Source: Thermoplasmata archaeon (GTDB taxonomy: Archaea > Thermoplasmatota > Thermoplasmata > Methanomassiliicoccales > Methanomethylophilaceae). Taken from it: a stretch of 41,184 bases of DNA. The stretch's first letter is position 1. Every line of letters begins with the position of its first letter. Both the position numbers and the translations under genes were made by a program. Where the stretch lies: NCBI GenBank assembly GCA_015063165.1, contig SUSZ01000020.1:1-41184 (forward strand), written 5' to 3'. This document shows, piece after piece, positions 5,162 to 36,386 of this stretch. The notes below the pieces were generated by a model, which was given only the letters and a program-made list of their open reading frames with translations, had not been told where the DNA came from and did not search any database.

Positions 5162-6679
5162 TCAGTTTCCAGCCTTGAAGTCGTCGTCGGCAGCCTTGAC
5201 GATGGCCTTGATCTTCTCGAGCCTGGCCTCAGGTATGGGCTGAACAACGTGGTTCTTCATGACGTCCACGACGATGTCGTGAGCAACATCGACACAGGCC
5301 TTGGATCCCTGGGACTTCCAGTCTCCGAGCATGTCCCTGTTGAACACGCGGGGGTCAGACGGAAGCTCGAAGTTCTCCATGGTGGTGGGGTGTCCGATGA
5401 AGTCGTTACCGACACCGATCTCCTTGATGGGGTCGACGGCGAGGGTGGTGTCGTTGACGACTATACCCTCCATAGCCTTCTGCTCCATAGCGATGATATC
5501 GTTGTCGATGACCATCTGCTCCATAGAGAAGGTCTGTCCGAGCTCGAGCATTCCTGCGCCGTAGATGGCGTTGGCTCCTGCCAGGGCGGGGAGAAGAGAG
5601 GTGATGGTCTTCTCGTGGGCGGCCTGAGAGTCAGGAACCTTGGCGTCGGTCTACATACCGGCGACGTAAACGGGCAATCCGTAGTACTGTCCGAGTTCCG
5701 CGACACCGGCAGAGATCAGTCCGAGCTCAGGGGATCCGACAGGAGCGGTTCCGTGCTTGAGGTCGAAGGTGGTAGTGGAAGATCCGTAGTAGACGGCCGC
5801 TCCGGGCTTCGCCAGCTGGGCGAGGACGATACCGGAAAGGATCTCCGCGCTGTGGGTGACGAGGGTACCGGCGAGGTGGATGGAAGAGGATCCTCCAGCC
5901 ATGGCCATGGACAGGACGTTGACGGGGATTCCGTACCTGGCTCCCTGGATGATGACCTGGCATGCATTGTAGCTGAGCTCAAGAGGAGAGGTGGGGCACA
6001 CGAGCATGGTCATGAGGGGCCTGTCGCGGGCTTTCTTCTCGTCGCCGTCGTACATCGCCTTGAGGATCTCCCAGTAGTACTTCACGTGTCCAGCAACAGG
6101 GTCGATGTGGTTGAAGCACTTGGTGGTGTTGACCATGGAGGTGTACATCTCGTGGACATCCTCAGCACCGACTCCTGCCCAGTCCCTTGCAGAGACGGCG
6201 AGGGAATAGAAGCTGATTCCGTCGCACCAGTCGCACAGCTTGGCGGTCATGGCGAGATCGTGGTCGTTGGAGTCGCGGGTCTCGTATTTGCCGTCGCCGA
6301 GGTAGTCGCACATCTGGATTCCGGTTCCGAAATCGGTGAAGTGGACGCGTCCCTTCCAGCTCTGCTCGATCCTGTGCTCGTCGGTGTAGTTGCCGTCCTC
6401 GTCGAGGTCCCTTCCATAAATGTAGAAGGTCTTGGGGGCCCTGGAGAGCGCGAGGTTGAGAACGAAGTCGGGGATCTTGACGATGTTGGTCTCGTAATCA
6501 ACGATGCACCCAGCGTCCTCGAAGATGTGCCTGGCCTCGTCATCGGAAACCTGGACACCGTAGTAGCTGAGAACGTCCCTGGTAGCCCTGTCGATAGCCT
6601 CAAGGTTGTCCTTGCTGAAGAGTTTGAGTTTAACTCCGACGAGGTCGCCCTTACCGGGATACTGAATATCTTTGCTCAT
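5162..6679 (-). CDS. mttB: Trimethylamine methyltransferase MttB with pyrrolysine at the in-frame TAG (5651-5653)
   Basis: Read through one amber codon, the gene encodes 505 residues, close to Methanosarcina MttB. The TAG at 5651-5653 is codon 343, after LPVYVAGM. The reading frame continues cleanly from the next codon ([20 protein letters not shown] onward) to a TGA at 5162. MttB moves one methyl group from trimethylamine to MttC; the pyrrolysine ring is thought to bind and position the amine. The protein is a TIM-barrel enzyme of the cytoplasm. GGAGGA precedes the ATG. Annotation tools that treat TAG as stop split this gene into 342- and 129-residue pieces. The pylTSBCD genes at 13669-17615 supply the 22nd amino acid. 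Confidence 0.96.
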
Positions 6680-6796: not shown

Positions 6797-8200
6797 TCAT
6801 CTCTTGAGCTTCTCGCGGAACTTCTCGCAGCTGTTGATCTTGATGTCGAGAATCTTCTCGATGTTCATCTTGGCGAGGATACCGCGGGGTGCTCCGGGAA
6901 TACCGGTGACGGATCCGATCTTGAGCTCTTCACGGAGGTCCCTCATGATGCACTCGTCTCCGAGGTCCATGGCGGTGACTCCGAGCTTCTTGGCGACGTA
7001 GTCCTTAGCGTCGTTGAGCCTCATGTTCTTGGTGTACATCATCCTGGCAACCAGGTCTCCGGCGGTCCTGATTCCGCCCATTCCGGATGCAACGAGGTGG
7101 GGGATGTCCATTCCCATGGGGTCTCCGACTCCGACCTAGACACCGTCGACCTTGGCAATCTCGACCATGGCCTTGTTGCACCTTGCGACCGCGTCAAGAG
7201 GAGGGGTCTCGAACATGGGTATTCCGCCGACTCCCATTCCCATGTCCACATGGACGGGTATAGGGGAGTCCTCGACTGCCTTCTTGATGAAGGTGACGGC
7301 CCTTCCGAGGTTCCAAGCGAGGGATCTGGAGGTGTTGGTGTTGCAGACGGCTCCGAAGACGTTAGCTCCGGACTTGGCGACGAGCTTCGCCTGCTGGTGG
7401 GGGTAGAGTCCTGCGGCGATTTCGCCGTCGAACTCCATCATTCCGTGGATACCCATGACGGACTCTCCAGCAGCACCGACGTTGATGTACGCCTCAGGGC
7501 AGAGCTCCCTGAGCTTCCTGACTCCGTTGAGAGTTCCGACGAAATCGGCGTCTCCTGCGGAACCGGTGGTGTCAAAGTTGAATCCATCGGATCCAGCAGC
7601 CTGGAGCCTGGTGGTGACGAACTCGATGTCCCTTGCGAGGTGCTCGGCGGCAGCCTCAGAGGAAGCCATGGACTCGTCAATCTTGAACTCCCTCATAAGG
7701 TCTGCGGGGTTTCCGTAAGGTCCGTCGGGAGCGTAGTACAGTCCCATGTTGGGCATGGCTCCATAGAAGAAGGGGGCGATGATCTCGGCCTGGATCTCCT
7801 CCATGGTCTGCATCTCCATGGAGATGACAGGCTTCACGGGCTTGATCGAGTAGTCGGAGTGCGCGAGCTCGAATGTGTCGGCACCGAGGGCCCTCTCGTG
7901 GAGGAGAGCGGCCTCGAGCCTTCCCATGTCGACACCGTTTCCAGAGTTTCCGTTGTCACCGGTGAAGTCGAGCTGTCCGATATCGTAGGTCATGACAACC
8001 TCGTGTCCGGGCTCAACTCCGATGACCCTGCTCTGATCGATGACAATCTCGCACATGTGCTCGACGTCGTTAGCGTCGAGAGCGGGTATCCCTGCCATGT
8101 CGGCAGCATCCGCAGATCCGGCCTGTATGTCGTTCATGACCTGCTCTTTGGTCATGGTGACCCTGCGGCCATCTCCCATTCTGGTGTAATACTCAGTCAT
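6797..8200 (-). CDS. mtbB: Dimethylamine methyltransferase MtbB with pyrrolysine at the in-frame TAG (7136-7138)
   Basis: With the amber codon read, this gene gives 467 residues, the same length as Methanosarcina MtbB. The TAG at 7136-7138 is codon 355, after VEIAKVDGV, and is followed at once by [20 protein letters not shown] in the same frame. MtbB transfers a methyl group from dimethylamine to the corrinoid protein MtbC, made from the gene 30 bp upstream. GAGGGA lies before the ATG. It ends in TGA and a terminator-like hairpin follows. Without readthrough the product would be a 354-residue fragment lacking the C-terminal third. Confidence 0.96.
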
Positions 8201-17544: not shown

Positions 17545-17615
17545 TGGCGAAAGGCCGGGGTGTCGAACCCCGCTCACAGGTTTTAGAGACCCGTTTGCTC
17601 GCCGGAGCGCCCTCC
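17545..17615 (-). tRNA. pylT: tRNA-Pyl (anticodon CUA)
   Basis: Read on the minus strand, the acceptor strands are GGAGGGC (17609-17615) and GCCTTTC, with discriminator G and an encoded CCA (17545-17547). The D arm is GCTC-CGGC-GAGC with a very small loop, and no base separates it from the acceptor stem. The anticodon stem has six pairs (ACGGGT/ACCTGT) around loop CTCTAAA, giving anticodon CTA. The variable loop is three bases, and the T arm is CGGGG-TTCGACA-CCCCG. These are the odd features of the Methanomassiliicoccales tRNA-Pyl. It is the first gene of pylTSBCD. Confidence 0.96.
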
Positions 17616-17854: not shown

Positions 17855-18445
17855 TCACAAAGACAGCCTGGCCTTGGTGTCCAGCGCCTCGAGGTATAGC
17901 TCCTTGGCCTTCTTCAGATCCGAGAACAAAATGTCGTCCGTAGGGAGGCTCGCGACATCGTATTCCAGGCTGAACATGCACCCGTTCTCCAGGAAGCGGC
18001 CGACATTGCTCTTGGTGCCGAGATCGATGGGGCCGGATGCGAAGCCTCCGGAATCCATGTTGGCGATGACGGCGTCGCTGGATCCCCTTATGTGGGCGTT
18101 GGTCTCAGCCCTGGTGTGGGTCTCGAAATACAGCACGCTGCCCTGGTTAACCGTGAGATATAACTTCAACAGATTGGCGGAGAAGACGTATACGATGAAG
18201 AAGCCGTGATGGAGGGTGTCCGTCTCGGACAGCTTGTACACCGCCACCCAAGGTATCTCCGCCCATCCTCCTTTCCCTACGCTTCCGGACACCCTGTACT
18301 GATCAGACTCGAACAGCCCCAAGGCCTCTATCTCGGCGGCGATGGTCTTCCTCATGAGGATGGAGACCTCATGCCCCCTGAACGGTTCCTTCCTGGCGTC
18401 TGGATACCTGGAAGCGAACTCCTGTAGAAGGCCGCGGAACGACAA
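17855..18445 (-). CDS. Stand-alone MrcB_N (DUF3578)-like protein
   Basis: This 196-residue protein resembles the MrcB-like N-terminal domain (DUF3578) that precedes the GTPase of McrB-type restriction proteins. The block GSVGKGGWAEIPWVAVYKL (about residues 54-72), followed by HGFFIVYVFSANLLKLYLTVNQG (about residues 79-102), is characteristic. The AAA+ GTPase domain is absent and no McrB motor or McrC nuclease is nearby, so this is either a truncated remnant or a lone DNA-sensing domain. The frame is intact, ends in TGA and begins right after the nitroreductase stop (2 bp apart). Identification of the domain is from memory of its motifs, with moderate certainty. Confidence 0.65.
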   Translation of the reverse strand: MSFRGLLQEFASRYPDARKEPFRGHEVSILMRKTIAAEIEALGLFESDQYRVSGSVGKGGWAEIPWVAVYKLSETDTLHHGFFIVYVFSANLLKLYLTVNQGSVLYFETHTRAETNAHIRGSSDAVIANMDSGGFASGPIDLGTKSNVGRFLENGCMFSLEYDVASLPTDDILFSDLKKAKELYLEALDTKARLSL

Positions 18446-19098: not shown

Positions 19099-20514
19099 TC
19101 AGTTCTTGCAGACCCTGATTCCCGAGCAGTTGGATCTGCTCATGTCCAGTCCGATGCTCTCCAGAGTGGCTACGGCCTTGTCGTAGACCTCGAGGTACTC
19201 CTTGGTGGGCCTGACGGAGGTGACATCGTAGCACTCCTGGAAGGTCTTTCCAGCGGGTGCGTCGGTGTAGTGGGCCTCGTACATGGGGACCAGCTTGCTG
19301 AGTATCTCGTTGACTTCGGAGACCTTCATTCCGGCTGTTGCGGCTGCGGCGTTACCCATGATCCTGGCCTCCATTCCGGTGGTCTTGTCCTGGACGACTC
19401 CCTTCGCTGCGGCGGAACCGGAGAGGAGCTCTCTTCCGGAAGCGGTATCGTTGATGGCCTGGGCTGCGGTCTCGAGGAGACACATCTCGGTGCAGGGTCC
19501 AGCGATCGGGTAGTACTGGTTGGCGAGCAGCAGGTCGGTGTTGGCATCGACTGCAGCGCAAGCCCATCCTGCGACCTGGAGGGTCTCCTTGGCCATGGTG
19601 GTTCCCCACCTGATGTGGATAGGTCCGTCCAGGTGGAAGTTTCCGCTGAAGAGGGCGAATGAAGCCAGCGTGGTTGCGACATCGCAGATCGCGGTCTCCT
19701 CGACTCCTCCGGTGTAACCTCCGAAGATAGGCATCTGCTCGATCATGATGGTGTCTCCGGAGACGGTCCATCCGGCGAGCATGTTCAGTCCGGTCATATC
19801 CATCTTGAGCTCGTTGAGCTGAGAGCACTCGTGGGCATCGGTGATCCTGTGTCCAGCGGAAGGCGCATCGGCGACCAGCCTTGCAGCCTCGGACAGAGGG
19901 GTCTCAGGTCCCTAGACACCGAGTCCGGGCCTTCCTGCTCTGGTCCTGGCTTCCTTGGTGGCCCTGAGCTCCTGCATGGTAGCGCGAACCTCCCAAGGGG
20001 TCTTGCTCTTTGCGGGCTTTCCCTCGACGGTGGTCATGACTCCGTTGACGAGGTCGTCAACGATTCCCTCCTGGGCGTAGGACTGCATGATCTTCACGAA
20101 GTAGTCCTCGGACAGAGGAGATCCGGTAGGTCCTCCCTGGATGATGGGCTTGACAGGAGAGTTTCCACGCCTGGGGTAGAACCTGGCGATGTCCCTTCCC
20201 TCTCCAAGGATCAGCTTCTTGGGGGTCCTCTTGATTCCCTCCCAGACTTCCTCTTCGGTGACCTTGAGGACACGTCCGAGGTCCTGGCAATAGAATCCGG
20301 TCTCAACGAGCATCTCGAGTCCGGCCTGGAACAGCGCGTCCTTCTGGGCCTTGTCCTCGGGGATGAAGGTGTCGATTTTGATGTTATACTTCTCCTTGAG
20401 AGCAGTTGCGTTTCCGGGAATGATCTTGTAGTCCCAGTCTGCTTCAGGGACCTTCTTTCCCTTCACGAATCTCTCGTAGACGTCAGGTATAGTGAGGAAT
20501 CTTGTTGCTGCCAT
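19099..20514 (-). CDS. mtmB: Monomethylamine methyltransferase MtmB with pyrrolysine at the in-frame TAG (19912-19914)
   Basis: Read through the amber codon, the protein has 471 residues, slightly longer than Methanosarcina MtmB (458). The TAG is codon 201, after RAGRPGLGV, and is followed by GPETPLSEAARLVADAPSAG in frame; the known Pyl position is 202. MtmB moves the methyl group of monomethylamine to MtmC. GGAGG lies before the ATG at 20514, 16 bp after mtmC. It ends in TGA, followed by a terminator. Without readthrough only a 200-residue fragment would form. Confidence 0.96.
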
Positions 20515-22533: not shown

Positions 22534-23796
22534 TCAGATGAACTCCTGGCCGGTGTCCTCTTCGACGGATCTCCCTGCTATCAGAGCGTCGAAATCGGCG
22601 CTGGGATCGTCCATCATGACGTTAAGGAGACCGATGAAGTCCCTCGAGAGCATCCTTGGACTGACAGAAGAGGAGTTGCTCTTCACGTCGCGCATGTACT
22701 CCTCGACCATTTCCTGGGTGATGGGGGATTCGTACTCGTTCGCGATCTGATGGAGCTCCAGGATCCTCAGCAGAAGCGCCTCCTGCTCCTCGAAGGTCAG
22801 AGGCTTGGTGCGCAGAACAGGGCCGGATACCATCCCGCGATCCTTCTCGAAGCGGCTCTCCTCGATCCTGGACTTGAGCGCACCGTAGCTGAACAGCCCG
22901 CGGACGGGATCCTCCAGGAAGTCTGCGGTTCCGCACATGTACATCGCCATGGACTTCGCGTGCCCCTGGGCGACATCGTTGTACATGGACAGGATCATCT
23001 CGTAGTTGGATGTCCTGGCGGCGACTCCCACCTTGGTCAGAACGTCTGCCTGGTCAAGGATGACGACGAGCCCCCTGTATCCTGCGACGGCCGCAAATAC
23101 CGCCCACATCTTGACGAAGACGAACCAGTTGTCGTCCTTGACGCAGGATCCGACCTCGAGCGCGTCCTTGGCCTCCTTCAGGGAGTTGCAGTCCCCGTTG
23201 AACCAGCGGATCTGATCGGATACGTCGCGTCCAACGCGCATGCGGACGTAGTACTTGACGAGGACCTTCTTGAAATCGTTGTAGAACGGAAGATAGGACA
23301 TGGAATCGGTCTCCTTGCGGATGAGGTCCTCGACCTCCCTGACGGAGACTGCTGTCGGATCCTTGCCGGAGCTCTCGGCGATCCTGTTCCTGAGGCTGTC
23401 CATCCATGTCTGCAGGACGGCTTCGAGGGCCCCTCCGTCCATCATACCCTTCACGGACATGCTGGATACCAGCTGGCGATAGGTCATTATGCCCTCGCCG
23501 CTGCTTCCTCTGAGCCTGCAGGCGGGAGAAAGGTCCGCGCTCATCACAAGGAACCCGGATTCGGCTGCGTGGGTGCGCACGAGCTGCGACATGAACGTCT
23601 TTCCGGTACCATAGTCGCCGATGACAAACCTGAACACGCCGATGCCGTCTGAGACGTCCTGGAGATCCCTGTCGAAGGAAAGCACCTCCTCCTTCCTCCC
23701 CACGGCAATCTGCTCCGCGCCCCTGCTGGGGACGACTCCGGATGACAGAGCCTTGATTATGATGTTCGCTGACTTCCTTCCTACCTTAATTCCCAT
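22534..23796 (-). CDS. BrxC/BrxD-like (DUF2791) P-loop ATPase
   Basis: This 420-residue ATPase has a Walker A motif GDYGTGKTF (about residues 60-68) and Walker B-like YRGLVVILDQADVL. The N-terminal block IIIKALSSGVVPSRGAEQIAVGR is typical of the DUF2791 P-loop family that includes BrxD/BrxC ATPases of BREX phage-defence islands and TerB-associated ATPases. It is cytoplasmic and probably DNA-associated. Its start overlaps the 3' end of the TerB-C protein gene by 11 bp, so the two are coupled. No BREX methylase, PglZ or helicase is in the window. The family call is fairly strong; the role in defence is inference. Confidence 0.8.
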   Translation of the reverse strand: MGIKVGRKSANIIIKALSSGVVPSRGAEQIAVGRKEEVLSFDRDLQDVSDGIGVFRFVIGDYGTGKTFMSQLVRTHAAESGFLVMSADLSPACRLRGSSGEGIMTYRQLVSSMSVKGMMDGGALEAVLQTWMDSLRNRIAESSGKDPTAVSVREVEDLIRKETDSMSYLPFYNDFKKVLVKYYVRMRVGRDVSDQIRWFNGDCNSLKEAKDALEVGSCVKDDNWFVFVKMWAVFAAVAGYRGLVVILDQADVLTKVGVAARTSNYEMILSMYNDVAQGHAKSMAMYMCGTADFLEDPVRGLFSYGALKSRIEESRFEKDRGMVSGPVLRTKPLTFEEQEALLLRILELHQIANEYESPITQEMVEEYMRDVKSNSSSVSPRMLSRDFIGLLNVMMDDPSADFDALIAGRSVEEDTGQEFI

Positions 23797-25141
23797 CCTT
23801 CAGCACCTCTTCGATATCGCTCGCGTAATCGGGGTCGACTTCGCCCTCTTCGAGCAGCGGGTCCCCGATAAGATCCTCCGCTAGAGCGTTGATACCGGTC
23901 TCTACGATCAGCATCGTGGATCCGTATTTCCTTAGCACCTCCGACGGCTTCCCACGCATCCCGATGCAAGCCATGAGGTACTCCTTCTGCAGGGGGGAGA
24001 GCATATCAGCCAGCCTCTCCCACTCGGTTCCCTCTTGCGTATCTGTCGATAGATTTATAGAATTCACTGATGGAGCCGGCTGTTCTTCCTCTTCGACGGT
24101 CCTCCAATGCTCGGAGATGAAGCCTAGCTCCTCGGTGGCCTGACGCACCTTCTCCCTGTGCAGATCGTCGAATCCTGGGACGGCCTTCTCTTCGGGAGCA
24201 TTGTATCTTACGGCTTCGGAGGCGTCCTCGGCGGCGGTCTCCACGGTACTTTCGGATTTCGCCTGGAGCCCCGTTGCATTCGTGGGCTCTTCGACAGCCA
24301 TGGGCCCCACGGCTTGCTCCTTTACGACTGCCTCCTCCGGAACGACTTCCGTTGCAGGCTCTTCGACCTCCTCCGGAGCGTCCTCGTTCTCCGCTTCGAT
24401 ATCCTCATCCGGCTCTTCTCCGAACCCGTGGAGAACCGGGGGGAAGGCGAAGCGAACAGACATCCTGTAGTCCCCTGCGGACGTCCTTGTGCTGCCCCAG
24501 TGGGTCTTGCAGTCCTGTCTGGTGGGCACCTCGGGAGCAGGATCGCCGTAATAGGTGGTGACGATCCTCCCGATCCCCATCTCGTAATCGTACCTCAGAG
24601 GCTCGTAGAGGGCGTTGACGACGACCACGCCTTCCTTGGGGATGTATGTCTCCCAATATCCTTTGTATCCGGCCACGCGAGGCACGGGCGGAAGGGTCGG
24701 GAATCCCATCCTGGGGCAGATGACGTCGCTCACCCTCTCCCCTTCGACCACAAGACGGACCGTATGCCTGGGGCCCTTGTATCTCGGCCTGACCTCGATG
24801 TCGCAGTCCGAGATGAGGAACGGCTCCCATTCTCCGACGCATCCCTCCACAGGCAAGACCTCAGGAGCCGGCTGGCCGTAATCTCTCACGACGACCGAGC
24901 CGTCATACTGCTCATAGATGACCCTGACCGGCCTGTAGACGGCTTCGATGGTGACGTCCTGGTCGCCCAGAACGGTCGGCGTCCATTCTCCGACGAAGCC
25001 GTTCTTTCTCGGAACAGGCGGTATGGACGTCCCCAGACCCTCGGAATCGAAAAGCGATACCAAGACGATTCTGCCGTTCGCCACGAAGGTGGCCGTGCGA
25101 TTGGTGACGGTCATACTGAACCCTGTATGGATATCAGACAT
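23786..25141 (-). CDS. Four InlB-type repeats fused to an acidic linker and a TerB-C-like domain
   Basis: This 451-residue protein has three parts. Residues 10 to about 230 hold four repeats of about 50 residues, each ending in a G-x-W then aromatic pattern (GEWTPTVLGDQDVTIEAVY; GEWEPFLISDCDIEVRPRY; GYWETYIPKEGVVVVNALY), like the InlB B-repeat/beta-grasp fold normally found on secreted proteins. Residues 240-370 are an acidic, Glu-rich linker. Residues 385-450 (LSPLQKEYLMACIG, ETGINALAEDLIGDPLLEEG) resemble the TerB C-terminal domain. There is no signal peptide or membrane helix, so the protein stays in the cytoplasm. It is coupled to the DUF2791-like ATPase downstream. TerB-C next to DUF2791 is a known pairing; the repeat fusion seems new. 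Confidence 0.7.
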   Translation of the reverse strand: MSDIHTGFSMTVTNRTATFVANGRIVLVSLFDSEGLGTSIPPVPRKNGFVGEWTPTVLGDQDVTIEAVYRPVRVIYEQYDGSVVVRDYGQPAPEVLPVEGCVGEWEPFLISDCDIEVRPRYKGPRHTVRLVVEGERVSDVICPRMGFPTLPPVPRVAGYKGYWETYIPKEGVVVVNALYEPLRYDYEMGIGRIVTTYYGDPAPEVPTRQDCKTHWGSTRTSAGDYRMSVRFAFPPVLHGFGEEPDEDIEAENEDAPEEVEEPATEVVPEEAVVKEQAVGPMAVEEPTNATGLQAKSESTVETAAEDASEAVRYNAPEEKAVPGFDDLHREKVRQATEELGFISEHWRTVEEEEQPAPSVNSINLSTDTQEGTEWERLADMLSPLQKEYLMACIGMRGKPSEVLRKYGSTMLIVETGINALAEDLIGDPLLEEGEVDPDYASDIEEVLKDGN

Positions 25142-31310: not shown

Positions 31311-32153
31311 TCAGATCAGGCAATCGGGGATGCGATGCCTCTCCGGATCGGATCCGGAGCGGTCCTTCCCGTGCATGGAATCCTGGATTTCGTTGAATTC
31401 CTTCGGAGTCAGCACCGTGTCTGCCGTATGGCGGATGTAGAGGTCTTCCCATCTCATGAAGCCTGCGTATACCGGATTGCGGAGGATGTTGCGGAGGTTG
31501 TGCTTGTTCCAGGGGTTGCCCTTCCTCGTGAGACGCCCTTCCCTGTTGAGGTCGTAGCAGATGGAGTCGACGGTCTCCCCCGAGGCGTAGGAGTCGAATA
31601 TCCTCTCCGCTACCGCCATCTCTTCCGGTTCGGCCACCAGCGCTCCCTTCTCCAGACGGTAGCCGAAAGGCGGGGTGAATCCCATGGTCTTCTTCCTGGA
31701 ATCCGAGGTTTCCAAGGATTCTGCCTTCTCGCGCATGCCCATGTGTGTCCTCTCGCCGATCTGCTCGCTCTCCAGCTGGGCGATGCGCTGGATCATGTCC
31801 ACGACGAACCTTCCGAGGGCGTTGGTGGTGTCCAGGGACTCCGTGGACGAGACGAACTTCTTCCCGTTCTTGTCCAGGTACTCCATCATCGTCATGAAGT
31901 TGCGACTGTTCCTGTGGATACGGTCCATCTTGATGACGACCATGACGTCCCACCTGTCCATCTCGGAAAGCATCCTGCGGTAGGCCGGGCGCCTGTCGTT
32001 CCTTCCGGAGAAGCCGTCGTCCTCGTAGACCTCGGCGACATCCCATCCTTCGGCTATGCAGTAGTCCTCCAGGACCGACCTCTGGGCGTCCAGCGAGTAT
32101 CCTTCGGCCGCCTGCTCCTCGGTGGAGACCCTTACGTAGATTGCGGCGCGCAT
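31311..32153 (-). CDS. Short serine recombinase (resolvase + recombinase domains), downstream copy
   Basis: This 280-residue site-specific recombinase has its catalytic serine in YVRVSTEEQ (Ser about residue 10), with conserved Arg in KMDRIHRNSRNF. A resolvase domain (1-145) is followed by a recombinase domain (FGYRLEKGAL to IRHTADTVLTP). It lacks the zinc ribbon and coiled coil of full large serine recombinases, so it is only about half their length. The start ATG at 32153 lies inside the 3' end of the related gene upstream (22-bp overlap). It may cut and join DNA together with its neighbour as a pair. Confidence 0.85.
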   Translation of the reverse strand: MRAAIYVRVSTEEQAAEGYSLDAQRSVLEDYCIAEGWDVAEVYEDDGFSGRNDRRPAYRRMLSEMDRWDVMVVIKMDRIHRNSRNFMTMMEYLDKNGKKFVSSTESLDTTNALGRFVVDMIQRIAQLESEQIGERTHMGMREKAESLETSDSRKKTMGFTPPFGYRLEKGALVAEPEEMAVAERIFDSYASGETVDSICYDLNREGRLTRKGNPWNKHNLRNILRNPVYAGFMRWEDLYIRHTADTVLTPKEFNEIQDSMHGKDRSGSDPERHRIPDCLI

Positions 32154-32926
32154 CGGCTCGCCTCGAAATGCCCGTTGAGGGCTTCGTACTTCTCGACCGT
32201 GATGATCGGCTCCTGCTCGCCTTTGCAGGAGATCCCGTTCCATACCCTGTATCCTGCATACAGAGGATTCTTCAGGACGCCTGAGACGGTCTGGGAGCTC
32301 CATTTTCCGCCTTTCTTGGAGGGATATCCGTTGGAGTTGAGGAAAGTCGCGATGTCCTTCAGGGTGGAGCCGCGGATCCTCATGTCGTACATCATGCGGA
32401 CGACGGAAGCCTCCTCCTCGACCACCAGGAGCTCCCCGTCCTCGTACCTGTAGCCGTAGGGATGCCCGGAGCCCAGGTGTCCGTCTCCGCCCTTGGCCTT
32501 GAAAGTCATCCCGAGCTTCACCCTCTCGCCGATCTGCTCGCTCTCCAGCTGGGCGATACGCTGCATGATGTCCATGACGAACCTCCCCATGGCGGTGGTG
32601 GTGTCGAACTTGTCCTGCATGGAGTTGAACTCCTTGCCCTTGTCACGGAGGTCGTTCATCATCAGGGTGAAATTGACGCTGTTCCTGTGGATACGGTCCA
32701 TCTTCAGCACGACGAGGACATCCCACCTGTCCAGCTCGGACATCATTCTGGAATACTCCGGACGGCTGATGGAGCGTCCTGAATGCCCTTCGTCCCTGTA
32801 TACGTCGGCGATCTCCCACCCGCGGACCCTGCAGTAGGCCTCCATGCGCTTGACCTGGGCGTCCAACGAGAATCCTTCCCTCGCCTGGTCCTCTGTAGAT
32901 ACCCTGGCATACAACGCCGCGCGCAC
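32132..32926 (-). CDS. Short serine recombinase, upstream copy (GTG start)
   Basis: This 264-residue protein is closely related to the product of 31311-32153 (RAALYARVSTEDQ versus RAAIYVRVSTEEQ; RWDVLVVLKMDRIHRNS is shared). The start is GTG at 32924-32926. It has the catalytic Ser, the recombinase domain (YGYRYEDGELLVVEEEASVVRMMYD) and no zinc ribbon or coiled coil. It ends in TAA inside the next gene. A perfect 14-bp palindrome lies 7 bp upstream of the GTG, toward the divergent surface-protein gene. A duplication made this pair. Confidence 0.85.
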   Translation of the reverse strand: MRAALYARVSTEDQAREGFSLDAQVKRMEAYCRVRGWEIADVYRDEGHSGRSISRPEYSRMMSELDRWDVLVVLKMDRIHRNSVNFTLMMNDLRDKGKEFNSMQDKFDTTTAMGRFVMDIMQRIAQLESEQIGERVKLGMTFKAKGGDGHLGSGHPYGYRYEDGELLVVEEEASVVRMMYDMRIRGSTLKDIATFLNSNGYPSKKGGKWSSQTVSGVLKNPLYAGYRVWNGISCKGEQEPIITVEKYEALNGHFEASRCAPQST

Positions 32927-32932
32927 GAATGT

Positions 32933-32946
32933 TCACCGATCGGTGA
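32933..32946. promoter_or_regulatory. Perfect palindrome between recombinase and surface-protein genes
   Basis: TCACCGATCGGTGA reads the same on both strands. It lies 7 bp from the recombinase start and about 40 bp from the TATA box of the divergent BspA-like gene. It could be an operator or a recombination site. I did not find a second copy in the window. Confidence 0.5.
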
Positions 32947-32986
32947 TGGAGGAACGTCGATTTAACCCTGTGCGGAACTTGGGCTA

Positions 32987-32996
32987 CTATTATAAA
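32987..32996 (+). promoter_or_regulatory. TATA box of the transglutaminase/BspA-like gene
   Basis: CTATTATAAA lies about 27 bp upstream of ATG 33018, which supports a leaderless message starting there instead of the in-frame ATGs at 32844 or 33009. Confidence 0.6.
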
Positions 32997-33017
32997 GCCG
33001 TAAACCAAATGTATTGC

Positions 33018-36000
33018 ATGGAGCAGAAGCACGAGAGACCGGACCACCGCAGGATCGTCCTGCTGGTGGCATGCGTCCTCGCCATCGTGGGCATATCAGC
33101 CATGGCTTTATCGGAAGAGGCCGAAGCCAGCGGTGCCGCGGACAATTGGTACTACGACCAGCTACCCGATTTCCCTCAGAAGCTCTACGACGCTTCCAAA
33201 AAAATCACGGACAGCCAGATGAGTTACACGTTCTATTACGACACCACAATAATGGATAGCAATAGCTGGAAAGCTCTTCTGGACACCTATATTGGGATGG
33301 CCTACGAGGCTTTGAAGTGCGAATGGCTGGGCATGCACATCTTGAACGGCCCGATAGAAGTAAAAATTGTAAACACTACCGTCAAGGTGTCCTGCTACCA
33401 CACCGGCTTGTACACCTCTAACTCGACAGCCACCAGAGAGATCAACAGCGCCCTCGCATCGTACGAGATCGACACCACATCCAGATATACGACGGTAAAG
33501 AGCATCCACGACGTGGTCTGCAACGCTCTGACCTATTCCGACAGAGGACTCACAGAGATGGACTACTCCCTGTACAACGCCGTTGTAGGGGACAATAAGG
33601 TCGTCTGCGAAGGGTACGCGAAGATGTTCAAGGCCCTCTGCGACCTTTACAACGTGCCTTGCGTCATCGTCTTAGGACAAGCTAAAGAATCTAGCACCGC
33701 AGAATATGTTAATCACATGTACAACTACGTCCAAATGAACGACGGCAAGTGGTACATGGTGGACGCCACATGGGACGACCTGGACGAGGGGACGGTGTAC
33801 ACGTACTTCCTCGCAGGCTCGAACACGGACGGATTCTTCACCAAGGTCTACGAGTCGCATAAGCCCGGGATATTCGGTCTGAACCCTCCGCCGCTTTCAT
33901 CGAAGAAGTACGAGCCCGCGTCATTGACGATCTCATACAACAGCGCCACCAAGACTATGTCATTCGACGGGGAGTTCGATATACCATCTGGAGACAGCGC
34001 TCAGGCGACATGGACGAGCTACAGCTCCCTGGTGGAGAACATCGTCATCTCGGACGACGTCACCGCTATCGGAGACAAGGCCTTCTACAAGTTCAGCAAG
34101 CTGAAATCCGTGACCATCGGCAACAGCGTCAAGAGAATAGGGGACAGGGCTTTCGCCAACTGCACGTCGCTCACGAGCGTGTCCATACCCTCGAGCGTGA
34201 CCTCGATCGACGATTACGCCTTCTACAGCTGCACATCGCTGAACAGTCTGACCACCAGCAGCGGCCTGAAGAGCATAGGCGAGAGGGCGTTCTACGGCTG
34301 CACAGGTCTTAAGACGGCCACCATAGCCAACACAGTCAGCTCTATCGGATCCAGCGCGTTCTACGGGTGCAAGTTCTTCGACGTCGACGGGACCACAGCA
34401 TTGAGCGCCGTGCCTGCGGACATAGCGGGATACAAGTTCACCGGGACCGCGAGCAAGCTCGTCCTCAGCACCAAGTTCGTAGTCGGATACGAGTTCTGGA
34501 AGAACGGGCTGAAGTACCAGGTGACATCGGCTCTGTCCAAGGACAGACAGGTCGCATTGGTGGGATACTCTGGAAGCATCGTCTCCCTGGCGGTGCCGGA
34601 TTACGTCTCCACGACGGTCGGCAAAATACCTGTGACCTCCATAGGAGGAAAGGCGTTCTACGAATGCAGCACGCTTACGACAGCCGATCTGGGCAACGTC
34701 GACACCGTCGGGAACAAGGCGTTCGCGTACTGCGCGTCGCTCAAGACCATCACCATTCCCAGCACCGTCGTTAAGATAGGGGACTATGCCTTCTACAAAT
34801 GCGCCGCTGCGACCAAGCTCACCACCAGCAGCGGCCTGAAGAGCATAGGCGAGAGGGCGTTCTACGGCTGCACAGGTCTTAAGACGGCCACCATAGCCAA
34901 CACAGTCAGCTCTATCGGATCCAGCGCGTTCTACGGGTGCAAGTTCTTCGACGTCGACGGGACCACAGCATTGAGCGCCGTGCCTGCGGACATAGCGGGA
35001 TACAAGTTCACCGGGACCGCGAGCAAGCTCGTCCTCAGCACCAAGTTCGTAGTCGGATACGAGTTCTGGAAGAACGGGCTGAAGTACCAGGTGACATCGG
35101 CTCTGTCGAAGGACAGGCAGGTGGCTCTCGTTGGATTCTCGGGCGCCCCATCCTCACTGGTCGTTCCGAGTTACGTCTCGACCACCGTCGGGAACATCCC
35201 GGTGACTTCCATCGGTGGAAAGGCGTTCTACGAATGCGGAACGCTGGCCTCCGCCGATCTAGGCTCTGTGAAGACCATAGGCAACAAGGCCTTCGCCTAC
35301 TGCACCTCCTTGAAGTCGATAACCGTGCCCAGCACCGTCGTCACCATCGGAGACTACGCGTTCTACAAGTGCTCTTCCGCCACGAGCCTCGTCACGAGCG
35401 CCGGATTGGAGAAGATAGGCTACAGGGCGTTCTACGATTGCACCGGCCTCAAGTCCGTCACCATCGGCAAGAACGTCAGCAGAATAGGTGGAAGCGCGTT
35501 CTACGGCTGCTCCTTCTACGATGCCGACGGGACCACAGCCCTGAGCGCGGTCCCCGAATACCTCGCGGGATACAAGTTCACCGGATCCGCGAGCAAGCTC
35601 GTCCTGGACACCAAGTTCGTCGTCGGGTACGAGTTCTGGAAGAGCGGACTGAAGTACCAGGTGACGTCGTCGCTCGCCAAGGACAGACAGCTCGCCGTCG
35701 TCGGATACAGCGGATGCATCACCTCCCTGGTGGTCCCCGAGAACGTCAACACGTCCGCTGGGCTGTTCCCTGTGACTTCCATAGGGACCAAGGCGTTCTA
35801 CGGATGCACGACGCTCAAATCGGCCGATATCGGCAGCGTGACTACCATCGGGACCAAGGCCTTCGCGGGATGCTCCTCCCTGGAGACGCTTTCGACCCTC
35901 AAGAACGTGAGCAGCGTGTCCTCCTACGCCTTCTTCGGATGCGACAGCCTGACGAAGGTCGTCATATCCGGAACCGGTTCCAGTATCGGAGCCAGCGCTT

Positions 36001-36386
36001 TCAGCGGATGCGACGGGCTCAAAGTCGTCAAGATCCTCGGATCCGGCATCTCCCTGGGAGACTACGCGTTCAACGGATGCGCCAGCCTCTCCACGCTGAA
36101 CCTCAGCGGAGTGAAGACAATAGGGTTCAAGACGTTCATGAACTGCACCAGCATCACCAAGCTGGCTCTTCCGAACGTCACGACCATCACCAAGTACGCA
36201 TTCTACGGCTGCGACTCCATCTCGTCCATCGAGTTCGGAGCCTCCTTGAAGGGCATCGGAAGCTATGCGTTCGACGGCCACAGCTTCTACTCCTCGAACG
36301 GAAAGACCAAGCTGACCGTCACAGCCAGCAACCTCGGCGGACACGCCTTCTCGGGAACTCCCGCGAAGCTCGTGATGACAGCCTAA
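33018..36386 (+). CDS. Secreted transglutaminase-like protein with BspA-type leucine-rich repeats
   Basis: This 1122-residue protein starts with a basic stretch and a hydrophobic signal segment (IVLLVACVLAIVGISAMAL), so it is exported. A transglutaminase-like domain follows, with Cys197 (KVVCEGYAKMF), His233 (VNHMYNYV) and Asp249 (MVDATWDD) as a plausible catalytic triad. From about residue 340 onward there are many LRR_5/BspA repeats (IGDKAFYKFSKLKSVTIG; IGERAFYGCTGLKTATI). No C-terminal anchor is visible. A 190-residue block is duplicated, 287 bp of it perfectly. Such proteins of gut archaea are thought to bind host or bacterial surfaces. Neighbouring recombinases are divergent. The start was set by the TATA box. 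Confidence 0.88.
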   Translation: MEQKHERPDHRRIVLLVACVLAIVGISAMALSEEAEASGAADNWYYDQLPDFPQKLYDASKKITDSQMSYTFYYDTTIMDSNSWKALLDTYIGMAYEALKCEWLGMHILNGPIEVKIVNTTVKVSCYHTGLYTSNSTATREINSALASYEIDTTSRYTTVKSIHDVVCNALTYSDRGLTEMDYSLYNAVVGDNKVVCEGYAKMFKALCDLYNVPCVIVLGQAKESSTAEYVNHMYNYVQMNDGKWYMVDATWDDLDEGTVYTYFLAGSNTDGFFTKVYESHKPGIFGLNPPPLSSKKYEPASLTISYNSATKTMSFDGEFDIPSGDSAQATWTSYSSLVENIVISDDVTAIGDKAFYKFSKLKSVTIGNSVKRIGDRAFANCTSLTSVSIPSSVTSIDDYAFYSCTSLNSLTTSSGLKSIGERAFYGCTGLKTATIANTVSSIGSSAFYGCKFFDVDGTTALSAVPADIAGYKFTGTASKLVLSTKFVVGYEFWKNGLKYQVTSALSKDRQVALVGYSGSIVSLAVPDYVSTTVGKIPVTSIGGKAFYECSTLTTADLGNVDTVGNKAFAYCASLKTITIPSTVVKIGDYAFYKCAAATKLTTSSGLKSIGERAFYGCTGLKTATIANTVSSIGSSAFYGCKFFDVDGTTALSAVPADIAGYKFTGTASKLVLSTKFVVGYEFWKNGLKYQVTSALSKDRQVALVGFSGAPSSLVVPSYVSTTVGNIPVTSIGGKAFYECGTLASADLGSVKTIGNKAFAYCTSLKSITVPSTVVTIGDYAFYKCSSATSLVTSAGLEKIGYRAFYDCTGLKSVTIGKNVSRIGGSAFYGCSFYDADGTTALSAVPEYLAGYKFTGSASKLVLDTKFVVGYEFWKSGLKYQVTSSLAKDRQLAVVGYSGCITSLVVPENVNTSAGLFPVTSIGTKAFYGCTTLKSADIGSVTTIGTKAFAGCSSLETLSTLKNVSSVSSYAFFGCDSLTKVVISGTGSSIGASAFSGCDGLKVVKILGSGISLGDYAFNGCASLSTLNLSGVKTIGFKTFMNCTSITKLALPNVTTITKYAFYGCDSISSIEFGASLKGIGSYAFDGHSFYSSNGKTKLTVTASNLGGHAFSGTPAKLVMTA
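34251..34537 (+). repeat. 287-bp perfect direct repeat, copy 1
   Basis: Identical to 34821-35107 at every base, offset 570 bp (190 codons), inside the BspA-like gene. A diverged third copy runs from about 35391 to 35680. Confidence 0.95.
34821..35107 (+). repeat. 287-bp perfect direct repeat, copy 2
   Basis: Copy of 34251-34537. Zero differences, including at synonymous sites, imply a recent duplication or gene conversion, while the rest of the repeat unit has diverged. Confidence 0.95.

Follow-up and report, generated by a model that had tools for sequence, protein, structure and literature searches.

The window analysed here is a 41,184-nucleotide stretch of contig SUSZ01000020.1 (assembly GCA_015063165.1), from a gut-dwelling methanogen, a Thermoplasmata archaeon of the family Methanomethylophilaceae. 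At positions 22534–25141 on its minus strand, where a first-pass annotation had placed them, lie two open reading frames encoding an adaptor protein and an ATPase, which we term mini-SngA (gene A) and mini-SngB (gene B). Sequence comparison identifies the product of gene B as SngB, the ATPase of Shango, a known three-gene anti-phage system formed by SngA, SngB and SngC (Millman et al. 2022; Johnson et al. 2023, PMC10250203). In alignment, the catalytic glutamate of Walker B is missing from mini-SngB, which keeps its ATP-binding residues and a putative arginine finger. We put at about an even chance the reading that the pair is a duplicated, re-tooled SngA–SngB couple from Shango, which would be ATP-locked and would dock on, or brake, the resident system of the same genome. 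The pair probably serves as an intrinsic regulator, or as an alternative sensor, and not as a new defence system in its own right.

The motor protein mini-SngB

Mini-SngB matches PF10923 (BrxC_BrxD, the old DUF2791) over the whole domain, with an E-value of 1.4e-107 and 360.6 bits against a cut-off of 22.2, in agreement with the first-pass assignment to this ATPase type from the Walker A motif GDYGTGKTF. Among the PADLOC profiles, SngB (PDLC03959) is matched at 2.2e-106 over residues 4–414 and BrxD at only 5e-41, which places Shango closer to the pair than the BREX or Ter systems named earlier. The protein shares with BrxD and BrxC of BREX the Pfam family and the ORC/Cdc6-like AAA+ fold, but its match to BrxD is far weaker than that to SngB, and no PglZ, PglX or BrxHI adjoins it; membership of BREX was rejected on these scores and on the absence of BREX core genes (PglZ, PglX/BrxC) from the neighbourhood. 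The AlphaFold2 (AF2) model of mini-SngB has a predicted local distance difference test (pLDDT) score of 90.6 and matched BrxC (9zll/9zdx) in Foldseek; a sequence search of the Protein Data Bank with both proteins gave no usable match.

The residues lost and kept were defined in an alignment of 45 SngBs, composed of the 5 mini-SngBs and 40 others, 3 of the latter being bacterial. The Walker B motif reads D-Q in all five mini-SngBs and D-E in 40/40 other SngBs, a change that is the most telling feature of the pair and had been overlooked in the first-pass annotation. Residue 251 is Asp in 5/5 mini-SngBs and Val in 40/40 others, and both Walker B changes were therefore already present in the common ancestor. 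Residue 305, a glutamate in 39 of the 40 other SngBs, is glycine. The putative arginine finger, R310, is assigned by spacing only: it lies +61 from the position of the Walker B glutamate, the same distance as from E269 to R330 in BrxC (PMC13326643). SngC stands directly downstream of SngB at 40/40 glutamate-bearing loci and at none of the five glutamine-bearing ones.

Changes of the same kind have been engineered in BrxC, where E269Q stabilised an ATP-bound AAA+ dimer (PMC13326643), E255A was dominant negative in trans over the wild type (PMC11580459), and loss of the Walker B glutamate abolished activity (PMC13326643, PMC11580459). In Vasa, conversion of DEAD to DQAD locks the protein and blocks hydrolysis (PMC10378496). 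By analogy, mini-SngB would be ATP-locked and its hydrolysis lost, as in the BrxC mutants, from which it differs in that its change is natural and has been kept in five species.

The repeat adaptor mini-SngA

The N-terminus of mini-SngA consists of four units of ~55 residues with the form P..P...GF.G.W...D..V.A.Y, seen in the AF2 model (built on five sequences; mean pLDDT 69) as four four-strand units spanning residues 15–235. Among solved structures, Foldseek gives the InlB B-repeat (2y5p) as their best plausible match, with a probability of 0.99 and a target template modelling (TM) score of 0.60. The four InlB-like repeats of the first-pass annotation are thus supported by repeat alignment, model and fold comparison, although they stay below threshold in Pfam: the window protein has no match at E<1, repeats included, and Flg_new (PF09479) remains under its curated cut-off, with a best value of 0.11 in one orthologue. 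Homology to Flg_new is transitive: it runs through repeat proteins found in this genus rather than through a direct Pfam match. In the same genome, a coiled-coil repeat protein matches mini-SngA at 7e-18 and gives an E-value of 4e-7 with Flg_new; for its relative in the pair-bearing genome G091 the Flg_new value is 3e-10. With 60 Flg_new matches, the repeat family is abundant in the window's genome.

These two repeat proteins (L044:8417-10798 on contig C27 of the window's genome, G000, and L043:9288-11333 in G091) combine a coiled-coil start with Listeria–Bacteroides repeats, have no evident signal peptide and share a neighbourhood of large genes. The repeat is apparently used intracellularly in them, and the earlier statement that InlB-like repeats otherwise occur only on secreted proteins does not hold for these nearest relatives. 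Mini-SngA resembles the InlB B-repeat and PF09479 in predicted fold and in the P..P...GF.G.W motif, but differs in falling below the Pfam threshold, in having no evident signal peptide and in being part of an apparently intracellular adaptor.

A linker, disordered in the window protein and short in the other four species, connects the repeats to the C-terminal tail. In hhalign the tail matches canonical SngA tails with a probability of 99.2 (E-value 1e-19), and it matches PADLOC SngA at 5e-7, confined to profile positions 393–527 of 528; the TerB/TerB_N region of SngA is absent, its place at the N-terminus being taken by the repeats. TerB_C itself (PF15615) has no match in the window protein and reaches 0.05, below the curated cut-off, in one orthologue; homology to TerB_C is established solely through the SngA tail. 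The TerB-C-like tail of the first-pass annotation accordingly stands as a SngA tail and falls short as a direct Pfam assignment. We infer that this tail is a SngB-docking module. The repeats may act as the sensor, as the first-pass annotation proposed. No effector domain was recognisable in either protein with Pfam or PADLOC.

Gene A probably starts at Met10 (base 25114; 442 residues), the start position in the other species. Its overlap with gene B is present likewise in the other four copies and suggests translational coupling. The architecture of repeats, SngA tail and SngB is kept in all five orthologues, and is therefore not due to chance. The pair shares with Shango the SngB-family ATPase, the SngA-type C-terminal tail, the A-then-B order and overlapping genes, but has neither SngC nor a TerB_N region, bears the repeats instead, carries glutamine for glutamate in Walker B and occupies a fixed chromosomal place.

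Table 1. Coordinates in the window of the gene pair and of its sequence features
Feature	Position	Strand	Basis
Mini-SngA (gene A), adaptor protein, 451 residues	23786..25141	-	PADLOC SngA 5e-7, residues 292–447; five same-architecture orthologues
Four InlB/List_Bact-type beta repeats, residues 13–235	24437..25105	-	Repeat alignment; AF2 pLDDT mostly 70–93; Foldseek
Acidic linker, low confidence, residues 235–322	24176..24437	-	pLDDT <50; alignment gap
SngA/TerB-C-like tail, residues 320–451	23789..24184	-	hhalign to canonical SngA tails
11-base overlap ATGGGAATTAA, gene A stop with gene B start	23786..23796	-	Sequence
Mini-SngB (gene B), ORC/Cdc6-like AAA+ ATPase, 420 residues	22534..23796	-	PF10923, PADLOC SngB, AF2
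Walker A, intact, GDYGTGKTF, residues 60–68	23593..23619	-	G60, G63, G65, K66, F68 invariant 41/41
Walker B, changed, D248-Q249-A-D251-V (LDQAD)	23041..23055	-	Q249 for catalytic Glu, codon CAG
R310, putative arginine finger, kept	22867..22869	-	Invariant 41/41

Descent of the pair and its relation to resident Shango

Among 147 genomes of the order searched, the protein joining repeats to a SngA tail is present in five species, all belonging to a single genus (G000, G083, G090, G091 and G092). Three of the five bearers are public sheep-rumen, sheep-omasum and RUG metagenome-assembled genomes (MAGs) of Methanomethylophilaceae/Methanomassiliicoccaceae, and the pair is found in one ruminant-gut clade. 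A wider contig scan with two patterns specific to the mini form, narrow in its coverage outside the phylum, recovered three of the same five species. No relatives of the pair were found in the viral contigs or phage collections searched, and its GC content is like that of the genome; a mobile or viral element was rejected on these two grounds.

The tree unites the five mini-SngBs with full support, at the end of a long stem nested within the archaeal family clade; their canonical counterparts from these five species likewise cluster (85/86 support). This topology indicates that the pair arose once, by an old duplication or gain, and was then inherited vertically. Mini-SngB is ~38–45% identical to canonical SngBs of the genus. 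Across the five species the frames are open at identities down to 62%. The ratio of non-synonymous to synonymous substitution rates (dN/dS) of gene B is 0.09–0.33, the value in the two closest species pairs being 0.09; that of canonical SngB is 0.16 in one of the two closest pairs, and that of gene A is 0.22–0.48. Both genes are under purifying selection, gene B strongly so; comparison of repeats with tail gave opposite dN/dS results in two species pairs and supports no claim.

A complete Shango system resides in the same genome on contig C35, where HtpG, SngA1 (TerB_N 1.5e-8), SngA2, SngB, SngC and SbcD follow in order; the two tandem SngA genes ahead of SngB and SngC (L033:12394-16667) encode 710 and about 714 residues. 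Canonical SngB is present in 31/31 searched genomes of the genus, the five pair bearers included, and is followed by SngC wherever its locus is readable, again in bearers too. Bacterial plasmid copies also have the three Shango genes in a row. The SngC of a relative matches PADLOC SngC at 7e-197, and SngC matches BrxHI, the helicase for which BrxD, an ORC/Cdc6 AAA+ protein, is the proposed loader (PMC12839542), at 4e-124. Because complete Shango is encoded in the same genome and canonical SngB throughout the genus, the pair is neither the minimal archaeal form nor the new kind of system that the first-pass annotation had suggested.

Within the family, 1–7 proteins per genome carry a SngA-type tail. 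In genome G042, SngA-like genes form tandem arrays that have neither SngB nor SngC in their vicinity, an enlarged family of adaptors: three complete copies and partial ones lie on contig C285 (L183) and two copies on C269 (L184). Orphan SngA-tail proteins lie away from SngB in G081, G089 and G092. No paper on how Shango works was present in the literature searched.

In the mechanism that we propose, the SngA tail would dock on SngB, its N-terminus serving as an exchangeable recognition part. Mini-SngB would bind ATP, remain in the ATP-bound state and assemble, either with further copies of itself or with the active SngB of the resident system. It could then be a regulatory subunit (a brake, scaffold or decoy) through which the repeat adaptor reaches the Shango complex; Shango in the host might fire only once the repeats meet or release a ligand, or the active motor might be kept in check. 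A SngB unable to hydrolyse ATP would not finish a helicase-loading cycle, which would fit the absence of the helicase. The action in trans on resident Shango, with hetero-assembly and an effect on defence, is proposed by analogy with the engineered BrxC Walker B mutants. We favour a model of exchangeable adaptors and an ATP-locked motor because of the BrxD, BrxC and Vasa work cited above and the several SngA-tail proteins per genome; the two tandem SngAs of the host's own Shango, and the recurrence of SngA tails as arrays or as orphans distant from SngB, also speak for it. More tentatively, and at somewhat below an even chance, the helicase-less, ATP-locked paralogue with its unrelated repeat adaptor may be a dominant-negative governor in trans, or an alternative sensor, of Shango within an archaeal organization of many SngA adaptors and one SngB motor.

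If so, a defence ATPase would be governed by its own hydrolysis-dead paralogue, a natural counterpart of the laboratory dominant-negative BrxC mutants. The pair is a natural experiment that separates the parts of Shango, suggesting that the SngA tail is a SngB-docking module, that the N-terminus of SngA is exchangeable, and that SngB's ATP hydrolysis and the SngC helicase belong together.

Several points weigh against this reading. Interaction between the pair and resident Shango has to be supposed, and their presence in the same genomes carries no information, since canonical Shango occurs throughout the genus. Asp251 might stand in for the lost glutamate. The five copies stem from one event, and the link between glutamine and helicase loss thus amounts to a single correlated change. 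The sequence distance from canonical SngB, together with the divergence of both members, would also fit a self-contained couple.

Such a couple could be a two-gene defence or stress switch in which the repeats sense a ligand and an ATP-bound mini-SngB ring works as a switch for binding or assembly that involves neither hydrolysis nor a helicase. The genes overlap and stay together in 5/5 species, both proteins have diverged from their canonical partners, and a clamp-type switch would need no hydrolysis; we nevertheless consider it unlikely, given that neither protein has a recognisable effector domain, that the pair lies outside defence islands with no relative in viral or phage collections, and that every bearer genome has complete Shango.

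Less likely still is co-option outside defence, as an ATP-dependent scaffold or chaperone-like factor for the methylamine methyltransferase and pyrrolysine genes or for a MarR–ABC exporter. The locus neighbours are CysK, MtmC, MtmB, MarR, ABC and SDR. In all five species the pair occupies the same chromosomal place beside mtmC, mtmB and pyl genes (including pylS and pylB), largely bearing out a doubt voiced in the first-pass annotation, that homologues found only beside housekeeping genes would speak against a defence system; its remark that no helicase, methylase or PglZ adjoins the pair was also correct. Divergent MarR–ABC genes lie next to gene A in 3/5 species and SDR is kept in four. In G092 the reading frame of gene B continues into the downstream CysK gene (L034:9612-11831; 739 residues, PF10923 + PALP). 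This fusion may be genuine or may reflect a frameshift in the MAG; the window has two separate genes, in different frames. Against co-option, the mtm and pyl genes are also found, across the genus, where the pair is absent; it is therefore not needed for them, and the gene family is a defence family.

Alternatively, mini-SngB might be an ordinary active SngB, with D251 or another residue replacing Glu249 and SngC supplied in trans by the resident locus, forming an extra Shango sensor–motor pair. Walker B motifs of the ORC/Cdc6 type are often DExD, and D251 is invariant in the five copies. The BrxC and Vasa mutants described above argue the other way, E305 is lost too, and we hold this improbable. 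That the pair is a decaying relic of duplicated Shango, as the missing helicase and replaced N-terminal region might suggest, is scarcely credible and was rejected on dN/dS: the frames are open, both genes are under purifying selection and the glutamine is invariant, and the pair is therefore not decaying.

Other features of the window

The neighbouring MtmB gene (19099–20514, minus strand) contains one in-frame TAG, at residue 201, read as pyrrolysine; tRNA-Pyl lies at 17545–17615 and PYLIS elements at 5554–5653 and 7039–7138. Adjoining tRNA-Pyl is a stand-alone MrcB_N (McrB-like N-terminal) domain protein (17855–18445, minus strand), also found in G090 and a possible restriction remnant. A large BspA-type protein with LRR_5 and transglutaminase domains (32844–36386, plus strand) adjoins a serine recombinase (32132–32926, minus strand), and a group II intron piece (Rfam RF02012) occupies positions 1–71 of the minus strand at the contig edge.
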